A stretch of DNA of 20,221 nt from a virus: IMG/VR virus record IMGVR_UViG_3300025141_001011, positions 1-20,221 of that record. The stretch is one strand, 5' to 3'. Each line of letters starts with the position of its first letter. Within the stretch, counting starts at the first letter, position 1. Positions 2,757 to 19,252 of this stretch are shown piece after piece. Below the pieces are notes generated by a model. That model made no database searches. It had not been told where the DNA came from and worked only from the letters and a program-made list of their open reading frames with translations. The translations under genes were made by a program, and so were the position numbers.

Positions 2757-5700
2757 CTATGGTTGTGCTTCTAAAGCCGCTCTTACTTCTCCTGCTTCTG
2801 CCACTCTCTTGGTCTCCGCTGCTAGGCTGGCGCAGTTGGCGGATTTGGTGGCGGCGGCTGCAATCTCTTCCGCCGTCGGATCCGAGCCCTTCCTCCTAAA
2901 TGCGCTAATATCTGTTGTTCTTGTCCATATGGCGTCAACTTTGCTTGTGAAGCTTTGATCTGATTTAATCGACCCTTCAACTTTGGTTATTAGGTGATAT
3001 CCTCCGATGCCCAACACATTGGAAAGAGAACCCTTATCCGTTGGCCAACCCATATTGTCTCCATCATCTGGCTCCAAGGCAACAAAACACAGCATTCCGG
3101 GCTTAAACAAGGTGTTTGGCTCCAATTCCATTGAAACGCTGTAGTGGTTTGATAGAAGGCTCATTCCGCCGGCCCCGCCGTTGAAATAACGAGACTCTCT
3201 TAGTCCGGGGGCATTTGTTCTTTTAAAAGATGCCGTTTTCACACATCCGGTTTTAATAGATCTATTAATTTTGAAAAATGACATGCCAACATCTTCAAAA
3301 TCTTTTCTACTGCCGTCGTGTTTTTCGCTATAAACGTTGTGTGATGACGTGTAAATTATGGCGTAATTAGTATAATTTGTAACCGGGGAGGTATCATCAA
3401 CTTTAAAGAAGGGAAGACCCTCTCCCTTGTCCAATGTACTTGGGCTTAGATCGAGGACTTGGCCTGCGTTTTCATTTATGTGTCTGGAAACACTAGTCGT
3501 TCCCCACCTATTGTTTCCAGCGTACATCCCTTCTGTTATTGGCACCCACCCATATTCATCTTGCCATTTTGTATTATATCCAACCCACGCATCCAACAAG
3601 GGGTCTCCAACCGCTTCGAAATGCCCGACTCTAAATGTAATCTTTTCTTCGTTCACATAATTAAAACATTGTTCATTCATAACATTTGTGATAAGCCTCT
3701 CAACAAGATCTCTTACAAATGTTATGACCGGATAATACTTTCTCTCTTTTTTAACGACCACTTCTTCATACCAATTCTTAAAAAATTGTAAAGATACTGG
3801 AATGTCTAAGATGTTTATGGATATCCCGACTGCATTTTCTAACGCCGGATTTTTCCAAAGAAATGACCCCGCCCCGAATCTAAGCTTCAAATGACTGACA
3901 TTATCTACGAGTTCATCATAAGAATCGCGTTTGTCTTGTTCTCCGATTTCGCCATATAGAACATCAGAAACAACGTCCATTAGGTCGCCCAAGGAAAAGA
4001 AATGAACGCTTGGTTGGGATGGATCGATTATCGCCTCTTTTCTTTTTGGCTGAATTGTTGTAGATGCTTCACCACCCGCAGCAGGAGCCGCCGCCACTGC
4101 CGCCGCACCTATCAGGGAACTATCCAGAAAAATCTCGTTGTTGTAATCTTTATTAGAAAAATTGTGTTTTGTGGCCGCCATGAGAGCATGCTCGCTCAAA
4201 CTGACTTCTTTTATAAATTTTCGTTTATAAAGTTCGGGAATTATTTTTCTTCGTCTTGATTCTGTTGTAATAGAATTGGACTGTCGTGCTAAATCCTTCT
4301 TGATGCTTCTTAAGTCTTCTATTGGGCAGCCGGCGGCCTCCATAATAACTTTTCTTTGAGCATCTTCCGTATCTTTTCTTTCTATAATTAATTTTTTATC
4401 AGCCAAAGCATCCATCGCTGGAGATTTTAGCGCTGTTTCCATATATCCGCGATAAGAAATCGTCAATTCATATTGTAAATTGGATTTATGATTAATAGAA
4501 ATTTCATGATCTTCCAAGGCTAAATTTAAAACCAAAGTTGAAGTCATCAAAGAACTATTGACCACTTCAACTTTACCAGTCACCTCATCATCATCTTTTG
4601 AAATATTCTCTGAGTCTATTTGACAATTCAAAATAACTCGAATTCTATTGTAGTCCGGGGAATATTGATTGATTATTGTGGAGCCCAAGCCATTAGAGTT
4701 TCCGATTGTGTCTGGGTAAACTATCAAATCTTTTAGGCTATAAGTGTGTGCCACCGAGACTTCACCTTCCTTTGTTATGACTTGCAATTGTGCTCCTAAC
4801 ATTGAGGCCGATGCCAATTTGAATTTGAGTTTAGCTTTAACATCCCTTCTGGCTGTCGCGGGATTGCTGCCGTCCATGGTGTATGAAAAAGAATCAAAAA
4901 CGATTCTCCCGCCCAAATTATCTAATTTTGCATCCCCCTCACCAGCCGTGACTGCTTGAATGTTTTGTTGGATTAATTGTTCTTCAAGTGTTATTGCTTT
5001 TTCGATCACTACTGTTGCCACCTCGTCGGCCGTTGCTGGTACCCTAGCAGATGATGCCTGCACCCCTTTGTCTCCCCCGGCAACAACCGTCATTTTGCCC
5101 TCCTTTACCTTGGCTTGGGATAACAAAAATGGAATTTCTTGAAGCTCGGAGAGTTTCCCATTCTTACTGAATTTTGGCCGAACCAAATAGATCTTAAGTT
5201 TGTGGCCGATGTGAGAATATAAATCTTTTGGAGCATGTGTAACAAACTCATCAGAGTCGTGCCAACCTCTTAAAACATTAACAACCTCTTGTTCGCTATC
5301 CCCCATGGAAAAAGGAATGCATCGTCCTCCCCAATAATATGGTTTTCCTTTTCTTTGGTTTTTAAAATAATTGGAAAAGTTTTCTAAATTTGCAAGAAAC
5401 GCGCATTGCTCGGAATATTTCTCCCAAAATACATTGGACGCTTCTTCTTCCTTTTCTTTATCCTTTTCCGGTTCGGGGGCCTTGTTGAGGCCGGCGGCTA
5501 GCCGATCTTTTATTAATTGTGCCCCAATAGCGCTTTCGGCGGCTGCTTCCGAGGCCGATAAGCTTTCCAAGCCCTCATCCAACCCGGATGTCGCAGCGCC
5601 AAATTCTCGGAGAATTTCATCGCCTTTCCCATCAGCATACCAAGCCTTAGCGGCAGCAGAATAAAACATGCCGGTGCCTATCTGATAATAACTAACAATT

Positions 5701-6167
5701 GCTATGTGATCATCAGGAAAATTTAAAGTTGATTGGGAGCTTTTCTCAAATGCCTCAATTGCTTGCGCTTCGTCTGTGACAACATTTGCTTCAATCGCCC
5801 ATGCGACAAACCCTTCTTTTGCTGACTCCTCGTTGGCAATCAAAAAGAGAAAGTCTTTGCCCCATTGTTCATAATTTGCAATTTCTGCTGCCGCAGCATC
5901 GAATGCTGCTCTTTCCTCTGAGGTGCTCCACCCTGCCTTTTCAGTAGCATCAAACCAACCTATTGACTCCAGCGCGTCTTTTGTCCAAGTGATGCCTCCA
6001 ACACCAGTGAAGAGCCCCGGAACAAAAATTCTAGTAGTAGAATTTGTAGCCCCGTAGCCGGTTTCCCAAACTCCCACGTCTATTTTGGCGGTTGAGCCCC
6101 CTTCTGTTCCCCCGAGTAATTTCTCTTTTTCACCTTTAAAAGTCTTAACAAAATCTTCAATGCCCAC
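2757..6167 (-). CDS. Large baseplate hub-like tail protein (gpD/gp27-type C-terminus)
   Basis: This is a protein of about 1136 residues. I prefer the GTG at 6167 (VGIEDFVKTF) because GGAGGGG lies just upstream and only one base separates it from the preceding stop; a TTG at 6185 would add six residues. The C-terminal region reads LGIGGYHLITKVEGSI followed by FTSKVDAIW, after a segment with FKPGMLCFVAL. This resembles the beta-barrel end of contractile-tail hub proteins, which lock the tube to the spike. Position after the gp53/LysM-like gene fits the gpX-gpD order seen in other contractile tails. It is far longer than gp27 or gpD. Residues about 75-245 form an Ala/Glu-rich, probably helical segment ending in a charged linker (PEPEKDKEKEEEA); a second Ala-rich linker and an Ala-rich C-terminal helix also occur. 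I saw no lysozyme motif. Hub assignment is moderately supported. Confidence 0.6.
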   Translation of the reverse strand: MGIEDFVKTFKGEKEKLLGGTEGGSTAKIDVGVWETGYGATNSTTRIFVPGLFTGVGGITWTKDALESIGWFDATEKAGWSTSEERAAFDAAAAEIANYEQWGKDFLFLIANEESAKEGFVAWAIEANVVTDEAQAIEAFEKSSQSTLNFPDDHIAIVSYYQIGTGMFYSAAAKAWYADGKGDEILREFGAATSGLDEGLESLSASEAAAESAIGAQLIKDRLAAGLNKAPEPEKDKEKEEEASNVFWEKYSEQCAFLANLENFSNYFKNQRKGKPYYWGGRCIPFSMGDSEQEVVNVLRGWHDSDEFVTHAPKDLYSHIGHKLKIYLVRPKFSKNGKLSELQEIPFLLSQAKVKEGKMTVVAGGDKGVQASSARVPATADEVATVVIEKAITLEEQLIQQNIQAVTAGEGDAKLDNLGGRIVFDSFSYTMDGSNPATARRDVKAKLKFKLASASMLGAQLQVITKEGEVSVAHTYSLKDLIVYPDTIGNSNGLGSTIINQYSPDYNRIRVILNCQIDSENISKDDDEVTGKVEVVNSSLMTSTLVLNLALEDHEISINHKSNLQYELTISYRGYMETALKSPAMDALADKKLIIERKDTEDAQRKVIMEAAGCPIEDLRSIKKDLARQSNSITTESRRRKIIPELYKRKFIKEVSLSEHALMAATKHNFSNKDYNNEIFLDSSLIGAAAVAAAPAAGGEASTTIQPKRKEAIIDPSQPSVHFFSLGDLMDVVSDVLYGEIGEQDKRDSYDELVDNVSHLKLRFGAGSFLWKNPALENAVGISINILDIPVSLQFFKNWYEEVVVKKERKYYPVITFVRDLVERLITNVMNEQCFNYVNEEKITFRVGHFEAVGDPLLDAWVGYNTKWQDEYGWVPITEGMYAGNNRWGTTSVSRHINENAGQVLDLSPSTLDKGEGLPFFKVDDTSPVTNYTNYAIIYTSSHNVYSEKHDGSRKDFEDVGMSFFKINRSIKTGCVKTASFKRTNAPGLRESRYFNGGAGGMSLLSNHYSVSMELEPNTLFKPGMLCFVALEPDDGDNMGWPTDKGSLSNVLGIGGYHLITKVEGSIKSDQSFTSKVDAIWTRTTDISAFRRKGSDPTAEEIAAAATKSANCASLAAETKRVAEAGEVRAALEAQP

Positions 6168-6168
6168 C

Positions 6169-6492
6169 CTACACCCCTCCTGCAATGGCCCCGGGGCTAT
6201 CTGGAATTTCTATAGTGGTTCCATATTCCAAATGGGCTTCTGTTGGGGTGTTATTATACATAGCAATCACCCACCAATAATCATAAGTACCGTAGTAGTG
6301 ATAGGACAATTTGAAAAACCTATCCCCCATTGACCAAATGTGTTTTCTCGAGGACACTCCCTTTAGCACATCGGTAGAAAAAGTTCTGGTTCTATAGTGA
6401 GTTATGCCCTTTGGAACCCCTCTATCCTCGAAAGTGTTTTTATAGAGATCATCATTGTTTTTAATTTTTCTCATATTTCTATATCTTGGCAT
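6169..6492 (-). CDS. Baseplate wedge gp53-like / LysM-like tail protein
   Basis: This 107-residue protein has a basic N-terminus and then a LysM-like core at about residues 52-80: IWSMGDRFFKLSYHYYG followed by YWWVIAMYNN. The pattern of GDR, then YYG, then YWWVIAxxN is shared by T4 gp53-type wedge proteins and by the small gpX-type LysM proteins of contractile tails, which join baseplate parts together. AAAGGAAA precedes the ATG. It lies 14 bases after the duplicated tube-initiator-like gene and one base before the hub-like gene, the order expected for a gpX/gp53-type protein. The fold family is well supported; whether it is functionally a wedge or a hub-proximal connector cannot be settled here. 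Confidence 0.75.
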   Translation of the reverse strand: MPRYRNMRKIKNNDDLYKNTFEDRGVPKGITHYRTRTFSTDVLKGVSSRKHIWSMGDRFFKLSYHYYGTYDYWWVIAMYNNTPTEAHLEYGTTIEIPDSPGAIAGGV

Positions 6493-6506: not shown

Positions 6507-8201
6507 TTATTTACACGCATCAATGTACTTTTGAATATTTCCATCAACATCACCCTCGGAGGCCTCCCCACCATCTAATTTTTGAAGTGGTAGGGCCTTG
6601 TTCTTTCTTAAACTCAATCCAAAATTATAATTTGGATAAATTCTTTTTAAATATTTTGCCCTTGATAAACCTTTGTTTTTCTCATCGCACAATGTGGGCG
6701 GTGGAGTTCCTTCTTCATTTCCTGTATTGCCCCCGCCACCACTATCTCCTCCGGAACTCCCTTCATTTCCAATAGTTTCGGCATAATCTATTCCAAAAGG
6801 CCATCTGCTATCGTCATCATATGATAATTTGTTTTTACTAAGCGGAGTATTTCCCAATTTGCTCAAAGCGGCTTCATTCAATTCAAATTCAAAAGAAATT
6901 TTTAAAACTTTGGGAATTATGAAGTTACTAGCGTATTCAAAAAACCCTGCGTCCATATCCACCGTTATGTCCATTTTCGAAAGTACACAAAACAGACCAT
7001 TAGACTTAATTTTATTGTAGCTTAGAGAACCAACCGTTGGGCTGTGTGGTTTGGATAGAAGGTTTTGAAAATAAGCATAAACATTGACCCCTATATCCCG
7101 GGAAGTTAAAGATAAACCATATTTACTTTTGTTCTTGGAACTGGCCAAGGATTTTATAGGAAATCTAGCCAATGCTTGAATCTGCGCCAAATTGGCCCGG
7201 GCTTCTTTTAAAGAATCTGAAGGGATATTGACATCGACATTAAATTTTCTACTCTTTATCCCCCCTCCAAACAAAACCATCGTGACGTCATCCGTCGGGT
7301 TTTCCAATTTTGAAAAAGAATTTTCCTGTTTAAAAGAAAATTTATCAACGAACGCTTTAAATGCAGCGAATTTGTCTCCAACGTTATTAGCTATTCCAAT
7401 CCAAGCTCCTTTATAGCTAGCATATTTACCAGTGTCGCCCATTTTGTTAACAGAGTGTGCGTCGCTCAATGGCATTGTTATTCCAAATGGCCAATTTTGT
7501 GTATCAGTTGTTTTATATTCTCCTGTCTTGTCTAACCCTTCAATACTGCGAAACGATCCTCTTGTTACCTTGCCTTTATAATATGGAGTAAAGTCCGGAA
7601 AAATGTTTAGAGCAAATGAAATTGAATAAACTTTAGGTATTATTTTGCCATCTTTTTCAAACACCCCCATTTCCATTTCTGGATCAAAGCCTAAAGATGT
7701 CATATAACACCTAACACCATATCTTCGAACTTGATACCAATTTTGAACTCCTACTGATGGATCTGTTTTTAATCCATTTTGAATTAAATTGGCAAATAGG
7801 ACATACATGAAAGACTGAGAATTTACGGCGTCCGACTCTTTTGAGTGACTGCTCTTGCCCCCGGTGTTGCGAATGTATCTCAATAGTTCTTGAAACTTGG
7901 CCAAGTTCATTTCAGCCTCAGCAACAGAAGTAGCAGGAACATTAAGTTTAAACGAATAGTTAAATTTTGAAGTAACCTGTTTAACAACTCCGGTATTTTT
8001 AAAGAATTCTGTGTCTATTTTCACGCCGTAATCTAATCCAATTTTAAAACCATCAACAAATCCTTTAAAACTTATAACTCGTGAAACATCTTCGTGGGCG
8101 ATATACAGAATAGCATTTTTATTAGTAGAATAACTCCCAGCACTATCATTAGGTGCTGATAATTTTCCAAATTTATTAATTTTAGCATCGAAAAAAGTCA
8201 T
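6507..8201 (-). CDS. Tail tube initiator / baseplate tube-cap-like protein with tandem duplicated domain
   Basis: This 564-residue protein contains two copies of one domain, at about residues 30-240 and 263-474. Matching blocks in order are FKGFVDGFKI / FKAFVDKFSF, YSFKLNVPATSVAEAEMNLA / FNVDVNIPSDSLKEARANLA, GVFEKDGKIIPKVYSISF / GFFEYASNFIIPKVLKISF, and NWPFGI / RWPFGI. The copies are followed by a Gly/Ser/Glu linker (about 475-500) and a basic C-terminal tail. The gene overlaps the tape measure stop by four bases (ATGA), so translation is probably coupled. In T4 two tube-fold proteins, gp48 and gp54, cap the baseplate and start tube growth. One protein with two such domains placed just after the tape measure could do both jobs. 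The duplication is seen directly; the gp48/gp54-like role is inferred from position and architecture. Confidence 0.7.
   Translation of the reverse strand: MTFFDAKINKFGKLSAPNDSAGSYSTNKNAILYIAHEDVSRVISFKGFVDGFKIGLDYGVKIDTEFFKNTGVVKQVTSKFNYSFKLNVPATSVAEAEMNLAKFQELLRYIRNTGGKSSHSKESDAVNSQSFMYVLFANLIQNGLKTDPSVGVQNWYQVRRYGVRCYMTSLGFDPEMEMGVFEKDGKIIPKVYSISFALNIFPDFTPYYKGKVTRGSFRSIEGLDKTGEYKTTDTQNWPFGITMPLSDAHSVNKMGDTGKYASYKGAWIGIANNVGDKFAAFKAFVDKFSFKQENSFSKLENPTDDVTMVLFGGGIKSRKFNVDVNIPSDSLKEARANLAQIQALARFPIKSLASSKNKSKYGLSLTSRDIGVNVYAYFQNLLSKPHSPTVGSLSYNKIKSNGLFCVLSKMDITVDMDAGFFEYASNFIIPKVLKISFEFELNEAALSKLGNTPLSKNKLSYDDDSRWPFGIDYAETIGNEGSSGGDSGGGGNTGNEEGTPPPTLCDEKNKGLSRAKYLKRIYPNYNFGLSLRKNKALPLQKLDGGEASEGDVDGNIQKYIDACK
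6780..7415 (-). repeat. Protein-level tandem repeat, copy 2, in the tube-initiator-like gene
   Basis: This segment encodes residues about 263-474 of the 564-residue protein. It is the second copy of the domain at 7482-8114, with the matching blocks VNIPSDSLKEARANLA, IIPKVLKISF and RWPFGI. Confidence 0.7.
7482..8114 (-). repeat. Protein-level tandem repeat, copy 1, in the tube-initiator-like gene
   Basis: This segment encodes residues about 30-240 of the 564-residue protein and aligns by eye with the segment at 6780-7415. It includes the LNVPATSVAEAEMNLA block and ends at NWPFGI. The similarity is clear at protein level, not as identical DNA, so the duplication is old. Confidence 0.7.
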
Positions 8202-10786
8202 ATTTTTGCCAACATATCCATTACAACATTTTCAACATCTAATTGTTCGCCGTTAATGTATACATTAACTATGGGTTGTGGTATTTTTATTTCTGGAATA
8301 TTAACATCGACGGTTAATTTTTCGGAAGTTAAATTCGTCAATATCCCAGCATCTCCTGACATCACCACGGAGGTCTTGCCTCCTTCAACAGAAGCAGCCA
8401 GAAAACCATCACCAACAATACTGCTAACGCCCGCCGCCAATGACATGATAGATGCCACCCCAGCGGCATACGCATTCATACCAGAGCCAAGCTTGGTCAT
8501 GTCATCCGCCAGTGATCCCAAGCTTGTCATTGCTTCCGTTATTCCAGCTAAAACAAACACGCCTACTATGCTTGTCATTGCTAGCATTATTGCAGCGACT
8601 GCTGTTAACGCCATCATAGATGCTATCCCTAGGGCACCTATCGATCCGGCAATCATCCAGACCCCTGCTGCAACTTGGGGCAGAATTGTCACATTGTTTA
8701 TAAACAATTCAAATAACCCTGAGACAGACTCAATAACAGCCGAGAGTCCAAAAAACACCAATGAAATGGCAGCAGACAATACTGAAAGAACTAGAGCGGC
8801 AACCAAAGCTGGTCCTTGAACTGTATCAAGCGCCTTTCCCAATAAAAACACATAACCTGCCACAACTAGAGGCATTAAATAAAAAGCCGGAGATCTAGTT
8901 GCATGCCAAACCGCCGCTAATATACCCAAAATTGCTGCCAACATCAGGATCTTTTTCCCTGCACTTTGCTGTGCTGCTTGGTTGGCTATCCATGCCTTAG
9001 TATTAAGAGAAATTCCCGCAGCCTCGGCAGCTTTTGCAGCCGCCAGAGCAGCGGTTTTATTGATCATAAAAGTGGAATAAACTAACCAAGCTGATCCCAG
9101 CGCCGCCATAGTTATCATTATACCATTCATGTTTTCTGCTAGACCGGTTATTACCCACGCCATCCCATCTAGCATCGAAACAACAGCCTCGTTTGCGGCA
9201 AGTTTCGCAAACGCCAATTGAAGCTTTTCCATTACTGGTACCATTTTCTCTGTTGCTTCGGCTAATTGTTTTTGAGTCTCGGCGCTTGCTGCCATATCGT
9301 TTTCATAACTCAAATAATCTTCTCGGCTCATGTTAAGAACTTTTTGAGCCTTGGCCATATCACCGCCAAATCCGGCCTGCGCGACGGCCAGTTGGGTATA
9401 CCTATCCATGGCACCAAATCCACCTCCAACCATTTCAATTTCGCTTCTTAACTTTTCAACTCTCTCTCCATAGTTCATATTGACCATTTCAAGTGCGCTG
9501 AACTGGGTGCCCAATATTGCGTTCAATTGTCCAGAGACTTCCGCCGCACCTTTGAATGTGTCAAATTTGGCACCAATGGAAACCAATTCCCCCATAGCAA
9601 CCCCGGTGGCTTTAGATTGAGCGGCCAAATCCTTAAAGACACCTATTGTTTGGTTTCCAAAAGAAGCAATCTTACTATAATTTGAAGACCAATCTGCTGC
9701 CATTTTCTTTGATGAAATTCCAATTGCGGACCCGGCCCTAATGACTTGCCTCGTCATATCGGCAGACTTCTCCGCTCCCATCCCCATAGCTTTGTTCATA
9801 GTATCCATCATTTTAGCTGATTCACCAGCACCAACCCCAACTTTAGATAGCAATGCTACGGTTTCTGTCATGTTTTCATTTACAGCCTTGGCATTGGGAT
9901 TAAACCCAGAAAAGTTTTCCGCAAGACTTCCTAGAGCAGCGCCGGCCTCTTGCATGGATACACCAGATTTTACGGTTGAAGAATAAACACTATTGATTTG
10001 CCCCCTAAAGTCTCCTGCAAACCCGGTTGCCCTTTGAAACGCCACCGAGGCCTTATCTAAAGCAATTGCGTTTTCTGCCATTTTACCCAACAAATTGGCT
10101 GCTATATTCATAGGATTGACCAACCCAAATGCCGCGTCCCTCAGAGCACCCATTTTCTCTGTTTTCATACCTTGAAAGGCATCAATCATGAATTTTATAC
10201 CGCCACCAATTTTAGTATCCAATACGTTGGCAGTTACCCCCATGGATTTGGCCAAGGAACCAGCGGCACTATTGGCTTTTCTAACAAATTTCTCAGCATC
10301 TTCTGTATGAGCACCGGCCAATTGAATTTCGTGATTTACTTGTCTCCAAACGTCTTTTTGGGACTGAAGAAGTTTTAATTTTTCTTCTTCAGTCCCAGCA
10401 CTTTTAAGCGCGTTTTTTGCCGATGCTATTTCCAACAAGAGCTTTTCTTTTAATTTTGGATTTATTCGTCCAAGCTCCCTAAAAGATTTTTCTAATTTTT
10501 CAATAGCGGCTTCATCTATTTTCAATCCTTTTGCTAATTCTGCTGTTTGCTGTTGAAGTTGAACTAAAATTTTATCTTGTTGGTTTAATTGTTCTTTTAA
10601 CTCTTTGTTGGTTCGACTAGCCCATGTAACCTTCTGCTCTTCGAGTCGCGATAGTTCTTTTCCACGCTCCAACATATGGCCCATTTGCTCTGCAATTTCA
10701 GCACTAGTGGCAGCTTGCATTCCCAAGGCCTCTAAATCTACAGGATTATTACCGCCCCCAGTGCCTGTGTCGTCTCTACCACCCAT
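8198..10786 (-). CDS. Tail tape measure protein
   Basis: This 862-residue protein has typical tape measure architecture. Residues about 30-170 are a charged, Gln/Glu/Lys-rich coiled coil. Residues about 170-540 are Ala/Gly/Met-rich helical sequence with many short repeats of AG and SA type. Residues about 543-755 hold several hydrophobic segments (for example ILMLAAILGILAAVW and AALVLSVLSAAISLVFFGL), and the end is a short beta-prone tail (VDVNIPEIKIPQPIVNVYI). Tape measures set tail length and are released into the host envelope with the DNA, which explains the membrane-active segments. At about 0.15 nm per residue the tail would be near 130 nm. AGGGTGG precedes the ATG. An intrinsic terminator lies just upstream, and the stop overlaps the next start as ATGA. 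The call rests on architecture, size and the chaperone gene before it. Confidence 0.9.
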   Translation of the reverse strand: MGGRDDTGTGGGNNPVDLEALGMQAATSAEIAEQMGHMLERGKELSRLEEQKVTWASRTNKELKEQLNQQDKILVQLQQQTAELAKGLKIDEAAIEKLEKSFRELGRINPKLKEKLLLEIASAKNALKSAGTEEEKLKLLQSQKDVWRQVNHEIQLAGAHTEDAEKFVRKANSAAGSLAKSMGVTANVLDTKIGGGIKFMIDAFQGMKTEKMGALRDAAFGLVNPMNIAANLLGKMAENAIALDKASVAFQRATGFAGDFRGQINSVYSSTVKSGVSMQEAGAALGSLAENFSGFNPNAKAVNENMTETVALLSKVGVGAGESAKMMDTMNKAMGMGAEKSADMTRQVIRAGSAIGISSKKMAADWSSNYSKIASFGNQTIGVFKDLAAQSKATGVAMGELVSIGAKFDTFKGAAEVSGQLNAILGTQFSALEMVNMNYGERVEKLRSEIEMVGGGFGAMDRYTQLAVAQAGFGGDMAKAQKVLNMSREDYLSYENDMAASAETQKQLAEATEKMVPVMEKLQLAFAKLAANEAVVSMLDGMAWVITGLAENMNGIMITMAALGSAWLVYSTFMINKTAALAAAKAAEAAGISLNTKAWIANQAAQQSAGKKILMLAAILGILAAVWHATRSPAFYLMPLVVAGYVFLLGKALDTVQGPALVAALVLSVLSAAISLVFFGLSAVIESVSGLFELFINNVTILPQVAAGVWMIAGSIGALGIASMMALTAVAAIMLAMTSIVGVFVLAGITEAMTSLGSLADDMTKLGSGMNAYAAGVASIMSLAAGVSSIVGDGFLAASVEGGKTSVVMSGDAGILTNLTSEKLTVDVNIPEIKIPQPIVNVYINGEQLDVENVVMDMLAKI

Positions 10787-10856: not shown

Positions 10857-11081
10857 CTATTTTCGTCTTGCTTTTTCTGCTTCTTCCTTTTCTTTCTCAA
10901 ATTCTTTGATCATTCTCTCTAAGAACCATTTGCGAAGACCGACCGGAAGATTATAAAGCTCGAACATCGACCATCCTCCATGATGTTTCAAGAGGAAGAA
11001 TTGCTCATAGACATTTTCCATATACTCATCGGTCAGGCCAAAAAAAGTCCGCGTTGAACGGTACCTCCATTTCTTGCTCAT
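10857..11081 (-). CDS. Short overlapping ORF, probable frameshift extension of the gp26-like tail assembly chaperone
   Basis: The frame encodes FFGLTDEYMENVYEQFFLL, then a HHGGWSMFELYNLPVGLRKWF-type block (in part), and ends in a Lys/Glu-rich helix (EFEKEKEEAEKARRK). Short proteins with this pattern of gly-trp, tyr-asn-leu-pro and arg-lys-trp-phe follow gp26-like genes in other T4-related phages. The ORF overlaps the end of the gp26-like gene in the +1 frame. Possible starts are ATG at 11081 or TTG at 11102, and neither has a ribosome binding site, so independent initiation looks weak. The seven-T run at 11040-11046 gives a better explanation: ribosomes shifting there would join residues 1-277 of the gp26-like protein to 60 residues of this frame. 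The frame is real by its protein-like character; how it is translated is inference. Confidence 0.65.
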   Translation of the reverse strand: MSKKWRYRSTRTFFGLTDEYMENVYEQFFLLKHHGGWSMFELYNLPVGLRKWFLERMIKEFEKEKEEAEKARRK

Positions 11082-11871
11082 GGGAGCAAGATTTGCATTC
11101 AAAATCTCTATACACCCTCAAATCTGGGGATAGTTCCTTGTACGCTCCTCTGAGGATTCTTGTTTCTTTGGCCGTTACATTGTCAATAACATAGTCAATG
11201 GTTTTTCTATCCGTATATCCATTGACAGATACAATAAAGAATCTCATTTGGCCAGTTAAGGTTTCTTCAATTTCGTTTTCTCTTTTACTTTTCTTTTGGG
11301 CCGCCTTGATCATACCAACTTCATCTCGACCAGTTAACATCTTAACTTCCATGAGAAGCTTAGACAATGGAAGGGTTACGACGTAATTGCCGTTGTCTTT
11401 TTGTTGAATATCAAATTCTTCACCCCATTCCCCGCCATGGCGTATTGTTGGTTTTAAGAGATTGAAGTTTAGTTTCGTTCCCTCTCCACAAGCAGGACAA
11501 TTTATCCTCGTTTGGTAGATGTGGCCATATGCTGATGCTCTGGCTGCAATTAGAATGGCGTTTCTATCTCCAATTAGAAGATCTTCTGCTCGGATATTTC
11601 TGTCGACAATAAGATTGTCGATAAGCCTTTCAATTGCCAATCCTTTTTTAAGCAAAGAGCGAGATGTTAATATGTCTTCATCCTTTGCTGTCATGTATCT
11701 AATTTCAATCGTCTCTTGATTGTGAAGGGGATGTCCTTGTGGATACATTTTACCCTTTGAGGGCAATTCTACAAATTCTTTTGGTGTGACAAAATCCATT
11801 GGATTTGCCATTTGTGGCGCCGGGGTTTCTGCACTTGGCCTTGCCCCGAAGCGTTCTTCGTTGTTTCTCAT
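11026..11871 (-). CDS. T4 gp26-like baseplate/tail assembly protein with zinc-ribbon Cys pairs (probable tail assembly chaperone)
   Basis: This 281-residue protein has the features of the T4 gp26-like family: ELPSKGKMYP near residue 36, a YMTAKDEDIL block near 59, a helical stretch with DRNAILIAARASAYGHIY (about 102-119), and two Cys pairs, CPAC (125-128) and CKSC (259-262), that could bind one zinc ion. The ATG at 11871 has AGAGGT just upstream. It lies between the tube genes and the tape measure gene, the place where contractile and non-contractile phages keep the tape measure chaperone. Its last codons overlap a +1-frame ORF at a run of seven T. Known gp26 is linked to hub assembly in T4; a chaperone role is my reading of the context. 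Confidence 0.75.
   Translation of the reverse strand: MRNNEERFGARPSAETPAPQMANPMDFVTPKEFVELPSKGKMYPQGHPLHNQETIEIRYMTAKDEDILTSRSLLKKGLAIERLIDNLIVDRNIRAEDLLIGDRNAILIAARASAYGHIYQTRINCPACGEGTKLNFNLLKPTIRHGGEWGEEFDIQQKDNGNYVVTLPLSKLLMEVKMLTGRDEVGMIKAAQKKSKRENEIEETLTGQMRFFIVSVNGYTDRKTIDYVIDNVTAKETRILRGAYKELSPDLRVYRDFECKSCSHEQEMEVPFNADFFWPDR
11040..11046 (-). other. Candidate ribosomal frameshift site (run of seven T)
   Basis: The coding strand reads GAC TTT TTT TGG in the gp26-like frame, four codons before its stop, and ACT TTT TTT GGC in the downstream frame. A +1 shift (or a -2 shift) on the Phe codons would re-pair fully and carry ribosomes into the short ORF. The stop TGA of the first frame lies 12 bases past the run. 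Frameshifting at this point of the tail operon is well known in other phages, but the +1/-2 direction here is less common than -1. Confidence 0.5.
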
Positions 11872-11888: not shown

Positions 11889-12605
11889 TTATGAAAAATT
11901 GTTCCATGTTGTCGAAGTCAGTACTCCAGTATCCATTTCATGTATAGCATAATCATATGCTATATCGAGCGTGTATTCAACCAAATTATCATCTTCGTAG
12001 GATAGATCTCCAAATTTAATTGATTTTATGATGGGGCCATGCAACGTCCATTGTTCAGTAACATTGACTTTCATCGGGAAATTACCATCATCATCGGCTG
12101 TCCCTGAAATCGCACCAGACCCCAATTGTTGAATGACTACGGACTCCGGCGCCCGATTCATCTTCCCGCCGGGAGTGTACCCTTTATCACCAGTTATTGT
12201 ATTATCCCATAGGCCCTGCCCAAAGGCATTAATTCCGGATGATAGTTTTTCCGGCGATGACATTTGGGCTTTGTCTCCATTAGAATTAATAGCATGCTTG
12301 TCTTCCGTTGGAATAGCGTAGCCGCTATTTCTAAGAATTTTCCATAACATATCAGCAGTATCTAGACCATCACCATCACTGTCGGCATCACCCGGGCCCA
12401 TACAGACAAATGTAATTGTGATAGGATTCCATTTTGCAATGCCGGGATAGTTGAAATGATGATTTAACAATTTGTACTCTTTGGTTGAAATCTCAACACT
12501 TGGTTTTGAAATACTTTTAACATTTGGGAGAAGGAAGGTCCCAAAGTTTACAATAAACCGGGACTTCATTTTTGGTTGAACATTGTGATTTGTCCAGAAA
12601 GCCAT
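11889..12605 (-). CDS. Tail tube protein, gp19-like, paralog 2 (with acidic Ca-loop-like insertion)
   Basis: This 238-residue protein is a gp19-type tube subunit, the ring-forming protein of the inner tail tube. Hallmarks are the ISKPSVEISTKEYKLLNHHF block, NYPGIAKWNPITITF, EQWTLHGP and the C-terminal IKFGDLSYEDDNLVEYTLDI. It aligns through its length with the preceding 191-residue tube protein but carries extra loops. One, at residues 73-85 (DADSDGDGLDTAD), matches the acidic DxDxDG type of calcium-binding loop; another long loop spans about 95-150. The start follows the upstream stop by six bases and lacks a clear ribosome binding site, so translation is probably coupled to paralog 1. One paralog may build most of the tube and the other a special ring, or both may alternate. 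The tube call is firm; the division of labour is unknown. Confidence 0.88.
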   Translation of the reverse strand: MAFWTNHNVQPKMKSRFIVNFGTFLLPNVKSISKPSVEISTKEYKLLNHHFNYPGIAKWNPITITFVCMGPGDADSDGDGLDTADMLWKILRNSGYAIPTEDKHAINSNGDKAQMSSPEKLSSGINAFGQGLWDNTITGDKGYTPGGKMNRAPESVVIQQLGSGAISGTADDDGNFPMKVNVTEQWTLHGPIIKSIKFGDLSYEDDNLVEYTLDIAYDYAIHEMDTGVLTSTTWNNFS

Positions 12606-12611
12606 AATGTT

Positions 12612-13187
12612 TTAATCTGCGCTGGTTTCTGTGCTATAATAAGGTGACCCCTCTTCACCGGCTATCACGCATGTCGCCCAGTCGTATCGTATACCCAATT
12701 CAATTTCAATAAGATTATCATCTTCATATGATAATTCGCCAAATTTACAAGTTTTCAACCATGCTTGTTTGAGTGTCCATTGTTCAATTTCCACTCCTTT
12801 TGCGTTAAGTTGAGAAATTACAACTTCGCCTAATGCGCTTTTTGCTTTACCTTTGGACATGCTTGACATATCCGCCGCAGTAGTTCCGCTTGGAATAGCA
12901 TAGCCCATGGCTGCGATGATTTTATTTGTATTGGCAACTGCATTGGGAGTTACGGGGTCAACAAGGGTGAGACTAATTTCTTGCCACTCAACCCTTCCCG
13001 GCCAATAATAATTATGATTCAAAAAAGAATGCTTCGATTCAGTAATTGAAAAATTCGGCTTAGTTACTTTTTTTGCGAACCAAATAATTGGATCGGTACC
13101 CCCTAGATTATCAAATGAAATTTGCCACCTGAAACCTCTTTTGGGATCTGCACTTGTAGCGCTTACTGTTGTCCAAAATTCTGCCAT
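12612..13187 (-). CDS. Tail tube protein, gp19-like, paralog 1
   Basis: This 191-residue protein is a gp19-type tube subunit. It has VTKPNFSITESKHSFLNHNY, then YWPGRVEWQEISLTLVDP, EQWTLKQAW and the conserved ending CKFGELSYEDDNLIEIELGI. Subunits of this kind stack as hexameric rings inside the sheath and form the DNA channel. Its length is near that of T4 gp19 (about 160-ish residues plus loops). AAAGGAG lies just before the ATG, a strong site suited to a high-copy protein. It lies about 30 bases after the sheath stop, the usual sheath-tube order. The second tube gene follows after six bases. The shorter, loop-poor form and strong binding site make this the better candidate for the major tube protein, which is inference. 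Confidence 0.9.
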   Translation of the reverse strand: MAEFWTTVSATSADPKRGFRWQISFDNLGGTDPIIWFAKKVTKPNFSITESKHSFLNHNYYWPGRVEWQEISLTLVDPVTPNAVANTNKIIAAMGYAIPSGTTAADMSSMSKGKAKSALGEVVISQLNAKGVEIEQWTLKQAWLKTCKFGELSYEDDNLIEIELGIRYDWATCVIAGEEGSPYYSTETSAD

Positions 13188-13218: not shown

Positions 13219-16080
13219 TTACGCAAAATCTGCACCGGATCGAGTAATAACAAAATCAACAACAATGTACTCAATGGCCCGAGCCGGTTTGATATAAATT
13301 TTAGCATACATAATGTTTCTATCGATCAAATCCGCAGTCGTTGTTGTTTCATCAAGAATGAGTTTATATTCTACAATTCCAAAGCGAGATTTAACATCTG
13401 ATAGCACTGGCTCAACTTGTCCTTTAAACCTTGCCCAAGTTGAAGAAATGTTTTGATCAAAAAGAAGGTTCTTAGAAATAGTGCTGACTTTGCTTTTGAG
13501 ATAGAGAAGCAATCGCCGAACATTGATTCTATCCAATGCTGACGGAGTGCTCTGAAGTGTCTTTTGACCAAAGATAACAACACCTTCGTTTGGAAATGTT
13601 GCGATCGGGTTAATGTTTTGAGCGTAAAGTTTGTCTCTTTCGCTTACATCCAATCTTTGTCGAGCTTGCACAACCCTTGGCCCTTGGCCTCCGCCAAGAT
13701 TCCCAAGACCACCACGATTAAACCCTGCTGGGGCAAACCAAAGTTCGCTTTGTGCTTCAGATTTTGCAAAAGCACCCAAAGCGGCAATAGACGACGGTAC
13801 CCAAACTCTCTGAGCACTTCCAAGGGTATCTTGAATTTGAACCCATGGGTAGAAAGCACATGCATAACTTGAGTCAATGTTTCTATTTTTCAAAGCTGTG
13901 ACTGCGCTGTCGACAGATCCTCGCCTAGTAGATGCTGCCGCGTTTGATTCGGCGCTTGGCAAATAATCATTTTCTAAATCTATAATTCCTAAACAATCTT
14001 TTCTTTCTTCACAGATATTGATTATTTTATTTGTAACAACTGGTTGATAAATTCCGGGAACCATCATTAAATTGCAAGGAACATTTTCAACATCATTAAC
14101 TGAATCCAAAGCTTTGGCTAATGAATAATAAACATAGCTATTTTGATTTGTCGACTCATCACTAAGGAGACTATTCCTAAAAGGTTCTTTCTCTTTAACG
14201 TCTAAACCGTCAAATCCTCCAAAAAACGGAGCAGCAAATTTTTTAACTCGTTTATTTAGCAAAGCAGTAGAACTGGACATGGCTGTGTAGGAAGTCCCAC
14301 TCCTTCGAGATCCAGAAGTATAGGTAACAGTATTTAGTGCATCGTCTATTATAATGTCATCCAAAGAAAAGACAAATGAGTGTTCAAAATAAGTATCTGG
14401 TGACCTTTGTTGGTGATAATCATCACCCATTCTTCTAACGTAGTCTCCATATCCCGGATCCAATTGGTTTGTGGTACTAGTAATTGTGGGCCTTATTCCC
14501 CATGTGCAAGAGTATGGGCTTGAAGGGGATCCTTGTGTCCCATTTCCCCTCAAAGGAAGAGACGGAAAGTGGTAAGATGCGCTAGCATCTAATGGTAGAA
14601 GAAACTCTGTGAATTGATGTGGAGCGAATTCATATCCGTCAGAATCCAGCCCAGCCATATAAACAGACCCTGATCCCAAAGCCATGGCTCCGGGAAGATT
14701 TTGATCATCTAAGGAAAATGGTCCAAGTTGTCCGTAACCAATTTTAAAAGTTTGTGGCCTGATAGGTCCAAAGAAACCAAAGGGTAAAACATTGGTTACT
14801 TCTGGTCCTGTATCTTTTATATCGTCATGAACAACTACTCGAACAAAATCAGAATTGTTCGGCCAATCTCCGGAGGCTCGATATCTTCTATCCGATTCTG
14901 ACCACTCTAAACTCTGGTCCCCGATTCTTCTTCCAATATAATTTCTGTCTGCTGGGTTTAAGTTTAGACTTCTATATTCTTCTAAAACTTCTCCACTAAG
15001 GTCTTGAATAAGCAAAGTAAATGTTGAGAAACCACTTACATTTGGATTTGATGGCAAGGCAAGATCACTAATAACAACAATGGTATTCTTTTGAAAATCT
15101 TCTCCGTCATGAAGAGACTCTAAATAAAATAATTTTTGAGAATTCAAAATTTCATGACTGGTAGCTTCTCCATAATCTTGCCCAAAGAACCAACCTGTCG
15201 TTGCTTTTTTCATTCCTTCTCTGTGCATATGGGGGCCTTGGCCTACCGAGCTAGTAGCCAAACCAATTAATATCCCCTGAACTCCGTTCGCCCCAGCAGT
15301 CGTGTCAACAAAATCAGCCAAATGTCTATCAAAAGTTTCACCTAGCCAATAAGTTTTTGGACTACTAACCAAGGTGCTGTTACATAATTGGGGATTAGTG
15401 TTAAAAACATTTCTAATGTAATCTGCGCTGTTTCGATCAAAATTAAATTGTTTTGTATCTAAAATAGTGCCGCTATCATTTCTTATTTCCATTTTGAAAC
15501 CACAGTTAGCGGCATTCGAATAAATATTCACTGCTGCTCCAGACAGGGCAATTTCTGTGCCTCCTGCTCCAAAGTTTCCTTTCAACAACACTGCTCCGCT
15601 ATCGACATAAAAAATAGCAGCCAACGAACCAGTTGGGGCAGATCCGGAGTTTGAAAGAAACAAGCCGTATGCCCCTCCATTTGAACCAATCGCTTGCGCC
15701 AAATTGTTTGTTGTCTGCCACCCAGCAACACCAGCGCCAGCGGCAGACACAGCGTCTTGATCTCCTAGAGCCCTAACAATTGTCACCGGAGAATTTTGAG
15801 ATGCAAGCCAAGCCTGAGCGGCATATGCTGCGTAAGTTGGACCTGCTCTGTTTCCATCTCTCCAAACATCATTTTTCAATGATGCTCCACCGGGTATCGG
15901 GGCGCCAAATACTGATACAAAATCTTGTAAAGAGCGAACTTTTGTCGGCACCATTGCTGGGCCTCGGAGTGTTCTACCAATAATTACCGGTCCTTCTGGG
16001 TCTGGATCTACAGAAAGTGTCGACTCATCGACCTCATTCATTTGCACACCGGGTGATAGAAAATCAAATTTTTTAGCCAT
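13219..16080 (-). CDS. Tail sheath protein, gp18-like, unusually large
   Basis: This 953-residue protein is a contractile sheath subunit. The N-terminus has SPGVQMNEVDESTL and then VIIGRTLRGPAMVPTKVRS and FVSVFGAP, the linker region that connects neighbours. The C-terminal 130 residues carry INVRRLLLYLKSKVS, then FDQNISSTWARFKGQVEP, GIVEYKLILDETTTT and IYIKPARAIEYIVVDFVIT, the conserved sheath handshake domain. T4 gp18 is about 660 residues, so about 300 extra residues sit in the middle, in Ser/Gly/Asn-rich sequence likely to form outer decorations. AAGGAG precedes the ATG. It follows the neck genes and leads the tube genes. The assignment is firm from both ends of the protein; the roles of the inserted domains are not known. 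Confidence 0.93.
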   Translation of the reverse strand: MAKKFDFLSPGVQMNEVDESTLSVDPDPEGPVIIGRTLRGPAMVPTKVRSLQDFVSVFGAPIPGGASLKNDVWRDGNRAGPTYAAYAAQAWLASQNSPVTIVRALGDQDAVSAAGAGVAGWQTTNNLAQAIGSNGGAYGLFLSNSGSAPTGSLAAIFYVDSGAVLLKGNFGAGGTEIALSGAAVNIYSNAANCGFKMEIRNDSGTILDTKQFNFDRNSADYIRNVFNTNPQLCNSTLVSSPKTYWLGETFDRHLADFVDTTAGANGVQGILIGLATSSVGQGPHMHREGMKKATTGWFFGQDYGEATSHEILNSQKLFYLESLHDGEDFQKNTIVVISDLALPSNPNVSGFSTFTLLIQDLSGEVLEEYRSLNLNPADRNYIGRRIGDQSLEWSESDRRYRASGDWPNNSDFVRVVVHDDIKDTGPEVTNVLPFGFFGPIRPQTFKIGYGQLGPFSLDDQNLPGAMALGSGSVYMAGLDSDGYEFAPHQFTEFLLPLDASASYHFPSLPLRGNGTQGSPSSPYSCTWGIRPTITSTTNQLDPGYGDYVRRMGDDYHQQRSPDTYFEHSFVFSLDDIIIDDALNTVTYTSGSRRSGTSYTAMSSSTALLNKRVKKFAAPFFGGFDGLDVKEKEPFRNSLLSDESTNQNSYVYYSLAKALDSVNDVENVPCNLMMVPGIYQPVVTNKIINICEERKDCLGIIDLENDYLPSAESNAAASTRRGSVDSAVTALKNRNIDSSYACAFYPWVQIQDTLGSAQRVWVPSSIAALGAFAKSEAQSELWFAPAGFNRGGLGNLGGGQGPRVVQARQRLDVSERDKLYAQNINPIATFPNEGVVIFGQKTLQSTPSALDRINVRRLLLYLKSKVSTISKNLLFDQNISSTWARFKGQVEPVLSDVKSRFGIVEYKLILDETTTTADLIDRNIMYAKIYIKPARAIEYIVVDFVITRSGADFA

Positions 16081-18758: not shown

Positions 18759-19010
18759 TTAGTCTATTATTTTGCTTTCCTCAGCCTTCTTTTGTTCAAG
18801 CTGAACTTGTTGAAGTTTTTGAATTGCTTCATCCCAAGATTCAAGACCCTTAACGGGCTTCTCTTTTGTCTCGACTTTAACTTCGCATTTTTTCTTGTCT
18901 TCTTCCTGTTTGCAAATCGTCTTTTCTTCTTCAACAAGAAGCGAAGCAACTGCTTTTCCAAAATCAGGTGAGTCGGCTCCCATAAGGGCAAGAATAAAAA
19001 TTAATTGCAT
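18759..19010 (-). CDS. Small exported-looking protein with a Cys pair
   Basis: This 83-residue protein starts at the ATG at 19010, which has GGAG eight bases upstream; a GTG at 19019 would add three residues. It overlaps the end of the previous gene by 10 bases. Its N-terminus (MQLIFILALMGADSP) is a short hydrophobic stretch like a signal peptide, followed by one Cys pair (CKQEEDKKKC) and a strongly charged, helical remainder (EEAIQ- and QLEQKK-type sequence). There is no lipobox Cys. Together with the membrane-anchored coiled-coil gene before it, it resembles a two-component envelope pair, but it is not a canonical Rz1. I do not know its function. Confidence 0.6.
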   Translation of the reverse strand: MQLIFILALMGADSPDFGKAVASLLVEEEKTICKQEEDKKKCEVKVETKEKPVKGLESWDEAIQKLQQVQLEQKKAEESKIID

Positions 19011-19252
19011 CCTAAACACTCCATTTCATGTACGCTGCAAATTAAACATTTAAGCTGCTGTCCTTTCTTGTCAAGTTCTTCTCGAAGCGAGGCAATATCT
19101 TCGCTTTGTTGCTCGATCATAACAGTTTGCTCTTGCTGTTCTTCTTCTGCTTTCTCAAGCCGAAACCGAACATCATTCCAAGTCGTAATCATTCCAATTA
19201 TGGTACCTCCGACTCCCAAGGCGATAGCTACAGTTTTTAAATCAATCTGCAT
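19001..19252 (-). CDS. Small membrane-anchored coiled-coil protein ending in two CxxC motifs
   Basis: This 83-residue protein has a membrane segment near its N-terminus (residues about 7-26, VAIALGVGGTIIGMITTW), then a long coiled coil (EKAEEEQQEQTVMIEQQSED and on to about residue 66), and ends in CLICSVHEMECLGCN with two CxxC motifs separated by seven residues. The four Cys could bind a metal or form disulfides. GAGG lies 10 bases before the ATG. An N-terminal anchor followed by a coiled coil is the layout of inner-membrane spanins and of some small lysis or assembly factors. Position before the neck genes, not in a visible lysis cassette, makes that only a suggestion. Confidence 0.65.
   Translation of the reverse strand: MQIDLKTVAIALGVGGTIIGMITTWNDVRFRLEKAEEEQQEQTVMIEQQSEDIASLREELDKKGQQLKCLICSVHEMECLGCN

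Follow-up and report, generated by a model that had tools for sequence, protein, structure and literature searches.

A conserved T7 run and a +1-frame extension in a T4 gp26-like phage gene point to a programmed frameshift with counterparts among T4-type phages

The question at the locus described here is whether a T4 gp26-like gene and a short ORF overlapping its 3' end are two genes or one gene giving two proteins. The window, which is the whole 20,221-nt stretch of DNA analyzed (IMG/VR record IMGVR_UViG_3300025141_001011), carries the gp26-like gene (ORF1, 281 aa, two CxxC pairs) at 11026..11871 on the minus strand; its translation would be the unshifted, 'G-like' product. An earlier note on this DNA had proposed a programmed '+1 (or -2)' frameshift from this gene into a downstream ORF overlapping it in the +1 frame. 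The overlap was confirmed, with the second ORF open over 10857-11102 (-) in the +1 (= -2) frame relative to ORF1, and its protein-like stretch indeed begins at the T run (FFGLTDEYMENVY). ORF1 ends in GCG GAC TTT TTT TGG CCT GAC CGA TGA, where the frame-0 stop TGA (11026..11028, -) lies four codons past the two TTT codons, just as the note had described. The run of seven T's (11046-11040, -) is read GAC TTT TTT T|GG in frame 0, so that the P-site UUU can re-pair one base 3', and nowhere in ORF1 other than at this slip site is an in-frame TTT followed by T. At this run the -1 frame meets an immediate stop, and the +1 reading from it is FFGLTDEYMENVYEQFFLLKHHGGWSMFELYNLPVGLRKWFLERMIKEFEKEKEEAEKARRK, with a stop at 10857. 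The extension (ORF2, the 'T-like' domain; 10857..11045, -) comprises 62 codons from FFGL plus the stop, and the predicted +1-shifted product has 337 residues, which matches the length anticipated in the note.

The family of ORF1 was established by profile searches, in which it matched Pfam PF12322 (T4_baseplate) with an E-value of 3.3e-17 and a score of 63.3 bits against a curated cut-off of 24.5, over profile positions 7-219 of 219 and thus at full length, as well as the PHROG baseplate hub family phrog_150 (E 1.5e-20). ORF1 and the extension were modeled separately with AF2. ORF1 gave a confident single model (mean pLDDT 92.2), and the extension was predicted to form three helices (pLDDT 92.8). 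In a Foldseek search with ORF1, the HK97 tail assembly chaperone 2ob9_B came first by probability (0.21) among the matches listed, with a TMt of 0.46. At an E-value of 2.5 this fold match is weak, and homology of ORF1 to the classical tail chaperones is therefore not claimed. A fold search with ORF2 and a PDB sequence search returned no match. Two other candidate relationships were set aside: a link to DUF6760, for which the Pfam matches were weak and below the cut-off (E 0.16 and E 0.049), and a match just over the cut-off between PF11176 (Tma16) and the ORF2 of one relative (L098), considered a chance match of helical sequence.

The order tube - chaperone - frameshift ORF - tape measure, which the earlier note had recognized, was borne out by the neighboring genes, with the tape measure assigned as probable. 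Upstream of ORF1 lies a tail tube-like gene at 11889..12605 (-) (phrog_4542, E 8.6e-19) and then a second one at 12612..13187 (-) (phrog_4542, E 9.3e-23). Downstream, the gene at 8198..10786 (-) encodes a probable tape measure protein of 862 aa, judged by its position, length and central hydrophobic stretches. This protein had no family match of its own, and its position equals that of the annotated tape measure of Flavobacterium phage immuto and LIS04. The order tube - ORF1 - tape measure was found in the relatives L083, L084 and L087.

Several other features of the window were observed. The two adjacent tube-like genes (11889-12605 and 12612-13187, -) probably arose by duplication, and one of the two proteins may serve to initiate or terminate the tube. 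The gene at 13219-16080 (-) encodes a very large tail sheath protein of 953 aa in which the match to sheath families is limited to the C-terminal third and the first ~640 residues have no match at all. A large protein of 1142 aa (2757-6185, -), whose upstream neighbor is a baseplate wedge-like gene (6169-6492), had no PHROG match. Additionally, two overlapping small ORFs (18759-19019 and 19001-19252, -) may form a lysis cassette, the second weakly matching holin and Rz-like spanin families.

Relatives were collected by ORF1 alone, with ORF2 playing no part in their selection, and included the 80 closest IMG/VR loci, 80 loci from a distant profile search and isolates from a phage collection, for a total of 168 loci. 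These were reduced to 110 representatives below 80% identity, 96 of them with ORF2 in the +1 frame. All 80 of the closest loci (47-100% identity) had T7 followed by GG and ORF2 in +1. Across the whole collection, an all-frame search with the ORF2 profile found a homolog in a non-zero frame at, or overlapping, the end of ORF1 in 168/168 loci. Of these homologs, 156 were in +1 and 12 in -1, frame 0 held none, and every locus had one; a few of the profile matches were weak (L159, on a truncated contig, E 0.04; L088, E 0.006). A conserved overlap in which the first ORF ends over a slippery site, the arrangement of the lambda G/GT type, was present in all 168 loci and in 80/80 cyanophage-type loci. 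T7 occupied the site in 90 of the 110 representatives, and runs of seven or more T's occurred nowhere else in the 79,833 nt of their ORF1 coding strands; the placement of T7 at this one position is thus far beyond chance. Related phages had been named in the earlier note as the place to look for the T run and the overlap, and both were found to be kept.

The extension also behaves as coding sequence. Mismatches in ORF2 at +1-frame codon positions 1, 2 and 3 amounted to 13.1, 6.7 and 25.1, respectively, a coding pattern. A stop codon closes the +1 frame in 11 loci until 20 nt ahead of the frame-0 stop, 2-3 nt before the run, which confines the shift in these loci to the run itself. In the annotated isolate records that were read, the two ORFs were kept apart or the extension was absent or shortened, and none joined them; the gene annotation in these records is split or cut short. 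No relatives were found in a search of plasmids. One locus came from a MAG contig assigned to Erysipelotrichaceae (L196, 1251-2070), where a PF12322-type gene near the contig end carries TTT TTT CGT and an extension in +1; this locus is probably a phage or provirus.

The direction of the shift could be approached through the variants of the site. TTTTTTTGG was present at 137/156 +1 loci, and the +1 sites were nearly all TTT-T/C or CTT-T, so that at nearly all of them (TTT-T, TTT-C, CTT-T) the P-site tRNA could re-pair one base 3'. The exception was LIS04, where a slip of the first TTT would be needed. The A-site codon at the +1 sites was UGG in most cases and UAC, CGU or CAC in others. Five loci with interrupted runs, TTC TTT TGG (L101, L128), TTT CTT TGG (L084), TTC TTT CGT (L086) and AAC TTT CTA (L082), allow P-site re-pairing in +1 (UUU-U, CUU-U or UUU-C) and make it impossible in -2. 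Thus, of the two directions offered in the earlier note, +1 is preferred and -2 loses ground. All 12 -1 loci showed a canonical heptamer (T TTT TTC, T TTT TTT or A AAT TTC) by our reading of the codons. The site in the window is a +1 site and has no such heptamer; -1 heptamers were present only in the cyanophage and jumbo phage branches. Three changes in shift direction were counted on a tree built from 66 proteins, at least two of these changes being forced by well-supported branches. One member of the +1 clade, L118 (IMGVR_UViG_3300020442_002272), stands alone in having its extension in -1, with A AAT TTC replacing T7, apparently an independent switch of direction.

An additional candidate element lies upstream of the run. 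An SD-like GGAGG occurs at 11064..11068 (-), 17 nt upstream of T7, and in most near relatives the same motif is located 17, 23 or 26 nt ahead of the run. An SD-like 6-mer at -36..-12 was found in 36/36 near representatives and in 58/96 of all +1 representatives, compared to 2% of control windows. At the SD-like codons GAG outnumbered GAA by 26:1 and 36:3, whereas the rest of the gene had a ratio of 293:785 (Fisher P 9e-14 and 7e-17), a preference suggesting that selection acts here on the RNA and not on the protein. The GGAGG may aid frameshifting and is put forward as a candidate stimulatory element. Conserved downstream RNA structure gave no strong signal (mean z -0.56 to -0.76; z -1.1 for the window).

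With the T run, the overlap and the coding extension all kept across relatives, the proposal that this gp26-like gene is subject to programmed frameshifting is supported, and it is very probable that a single start gives two proteins by a +1 frameshift at T7, an architecture that would be family-wide and that in T4 would be split into genes 26 and 51. Most ribosomes would halt at the TGA and release the 281-residue gp26-like protein. In a fraction of ribosomes, the P-site tRNA-Phe, paired with the second UUU of UUU UUU U GG, would slip by +1 and re-pair on the overlapping UUU, and 60 further codons would be read. The resulting protein of 337 residues would carry the three helices of the extension at its C-terminus. 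From the gene position and the analogy to lambda G/GT, both forms would be assembly chaperones, of which the short one probably coats the tape measure, while the long one probably recruits tail tube or hub subunits. The conserved site, its frame, the coding extension, the lack of start codons in many relatives and the T4 paralogy described below are all read directly from sequence; that ribosomes shift here, the efficiency with which they do so, the part played by the SD-like element and the action of the products as chaperones are what we infer. Several points speak against this explanation. The A site holds UGG or another sense codon, which is neither a stop nor obviously a hungry codon, and the spacing to the upstream SD-like element is larger than in prfB. 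The weak downstream structure signal, the weak fold match of ORF1 to tail chaperones and the ATG that some near relatives have in the +1 frame just past the run count on the same side.

The +1 slip was weighed against other ways of joining, or not joining, the two ORFs. On a perfect T7, the P-site UUU could re-pair equally well after a backward slip of two bases, which leads into the same frame and adds one Phe to the product, and -2 shifts of the Mu type do occur in tail genes; a -2 shift is nevertheless very unlikely here, since L082, L084, L086, L101 and L128 keep ORF2 in the +1 frame where -2 re-pairing cannot take place. RNA polymerase slippage, by which a fraction of the mRNAs would carry six U's, would yield a protein identical to the +1 product, and homopolymeric T runs can provoke it. 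Seven T's are a short run for slippage by bacterial RNA polymerase, the arrangement is kept where the longest T run is 3-4 (TTTCTTTGG, TTCTTTTGG, TTCTTTCGT), and the -1 branch uses ribosomal heptamers, all of which make a transcriptional origin of the frame change highly improbable.

Alternatively, ORF2 could be a separate small protein made by internal initiation or termination-reinitiation, as the annotated 'gp51' of S-PM2 would suggest. Some members have an ATG soon after the site (S-PM2 gp51 among them), an ATG in the +1 frame just past the run makes independent initiation possible in some near relatives, and the SD-like GGAGG lies upstream. However, among the 96 +1 representatives, 37 lack any ATG, GTG or TTG in the +1 frame ahead of the run, and for 23 of the 37 the following 12 codons offer no start either. 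In this respect, the absence of a ribosome binding site ahead of the second ORF, which the earlier note had reported, understates the case, as many relatives lack any usable start codon. The -1 ORF2 of Aeh1 likewise has no ATG near the site, slippery sites are found at the junction throughout, and T4 gp51 holds both parts in one chain, so that separate translation of ORF2 has only a slim chance of being the explanation. Finally, homopolymer runs are prone to sequencing errors, and an error or a pseudogene could mimic an overlap of this kind, but the same run and overlap recur in isolates (e.g., Microcystis phage Mel-JY01) and in metagenome contigs numbering well above one hundred, and this conservation rules the explanation out, leaving it a negligible probability.

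The earlier note had regarded a shift of this type in a gp26-like protein as an uncommon form of the mechanism, which is right for +1 and misses the larger point that cyanophages and jumbo phages have -1 heptamers and T4 has paralogous genes. The end of gp26 reads T TTT TTC in S-PM2, P-SSM2, KVP40, Aeh1, ACP17, PA5oct, RaK2 and Serratia BF, and T TTT TTT in pf16, in each case with an extension in -1. Additionally, 80/80 cyanophage-type IMG/VR loci had T TTT TTY ahead of the gp26 stop together with a -1 extension. The S-PM2 annotation names the extension 'gp51' and gives it 57 residues, with its start just past the gp26 stop; as read from these genomes, the -1 frame at the end of gp26 is, or contains, 'gp51'. 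Cyanophage gp51 has been described as ~20% of the T4 length, with the first ~200 residues missing and a similar C-terminus, and gp51 was reported absent only from Aeh1 (Sullivan et al. 2010, PMC3037559). In Aeh1 we found ORF2 in the -1 frame. The short cyanophage 'gp51' is the same domain as ORF2, taken as a reduced gene in that study and here as a -1 frameshift extension of gp26, which, if true, would explain both its length and its reported absence from Aeh1.

T4 itself has PF12322 in two genes, 26 and 51, whose products are paralogs (BLASTP E 3e-6) and are known as hub assembly chaperones, gp51 being needed yet absent from the particle (PMC3004832). When the -1 extensions from six T4-like phages were combined into a profile and searched against the whole T4 genome, the single match (E 3.5e-4) was to the C-terminus of gene 51, just past the PF12322 domain, where the extension is in frame. 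The end of T4 gp26 has neither a slippery site nor an extension. PF12322 is common to ORF1, gp26 and the N-terminal 200 residues of gp51. ORF2-type extensions have their match at the C-terminus of gp51, and ORF2 is, as far as these matches indicate, the counterpart of the C-terminal part of T4 gp51. Unlike in the window, genes 26 and 51 of T4 are separate, lie on opposite strands and lack a slippery site; the two products would have moved into paralogous genes. In the 66-protein tree, both T4 proteins group with the T4-like -1 clade, although their branches are long and their exact place is unsure. T4 gp51 had near-full-length matches in 1,334 phage records, from T4-type phages by organism.

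Altogether, we consider it likely, if with less assurance than the +1 frameshift itself, that T4-type phages and many jumbo contractile phages have the gp26 family as their tail assembly chaperone, which forms a G/GT-like pair by a frameshift that has changed direction, between +1 and -1, on at least two or three occasions, and that T4 was never a functional exception and lost the frameshift by duplication into 26 (short) and 51 (extended). If true, this would supply the missing G/GT counterpart in T4-type phages, answer the T4 exception to the lambda rule, give T4 gp26 and gp51 a directly testable role, and offer many natural examples from which +1 frameshifting and the evolution of frameshift direction can be studied. 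No report of frameshifting in gp26/PF12322 was found in the open-licence literature searched, and subscription journals may hold one.

The lambda G/GT frameshift has been described as widely conserved in long-tailed phages 'except T4', with a haloarchaeal myovirus as a likely +1 case (review PMC5009743). As in lambda G/GT and P2 E/E' (Xu, Hendrix and Duda 2004; PMC5009743), the site described here lies between the tail tube and tape measure genes, a short ORF in another frame overlaps the 3' end of the first, and a short and an extended product come from one start. The window differs from these systems in its family, PF12322, which is zinc-ribbon-like, and in a +1 shift at UUU-U instead of a -1 shift. 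The HF1-group haloarchaeal myoviruses have a proposed +1 frameshift at TTT-CGC (PMC7230728), and influenza A virus shifts by +1 at UCC_UUU_CGU (reference in PMC7230728). The likeness to both is a +1 shift at UUU followed by C, and the exact TTT CGT is found in GXN1, L140 and the Erysipelotrichaceae locus. The HF1 group differs in using another chaperone family, and no PF12322 protein was found in HF2. In comparison with prfB (RF2), the A site here holds no stop and the SD-like element lies 17-26 nt upstream instead of about 3 nt, while P-site re-pairing on CUU-U or UUU-U and the presence of an SD-like element upstream are features common to both.
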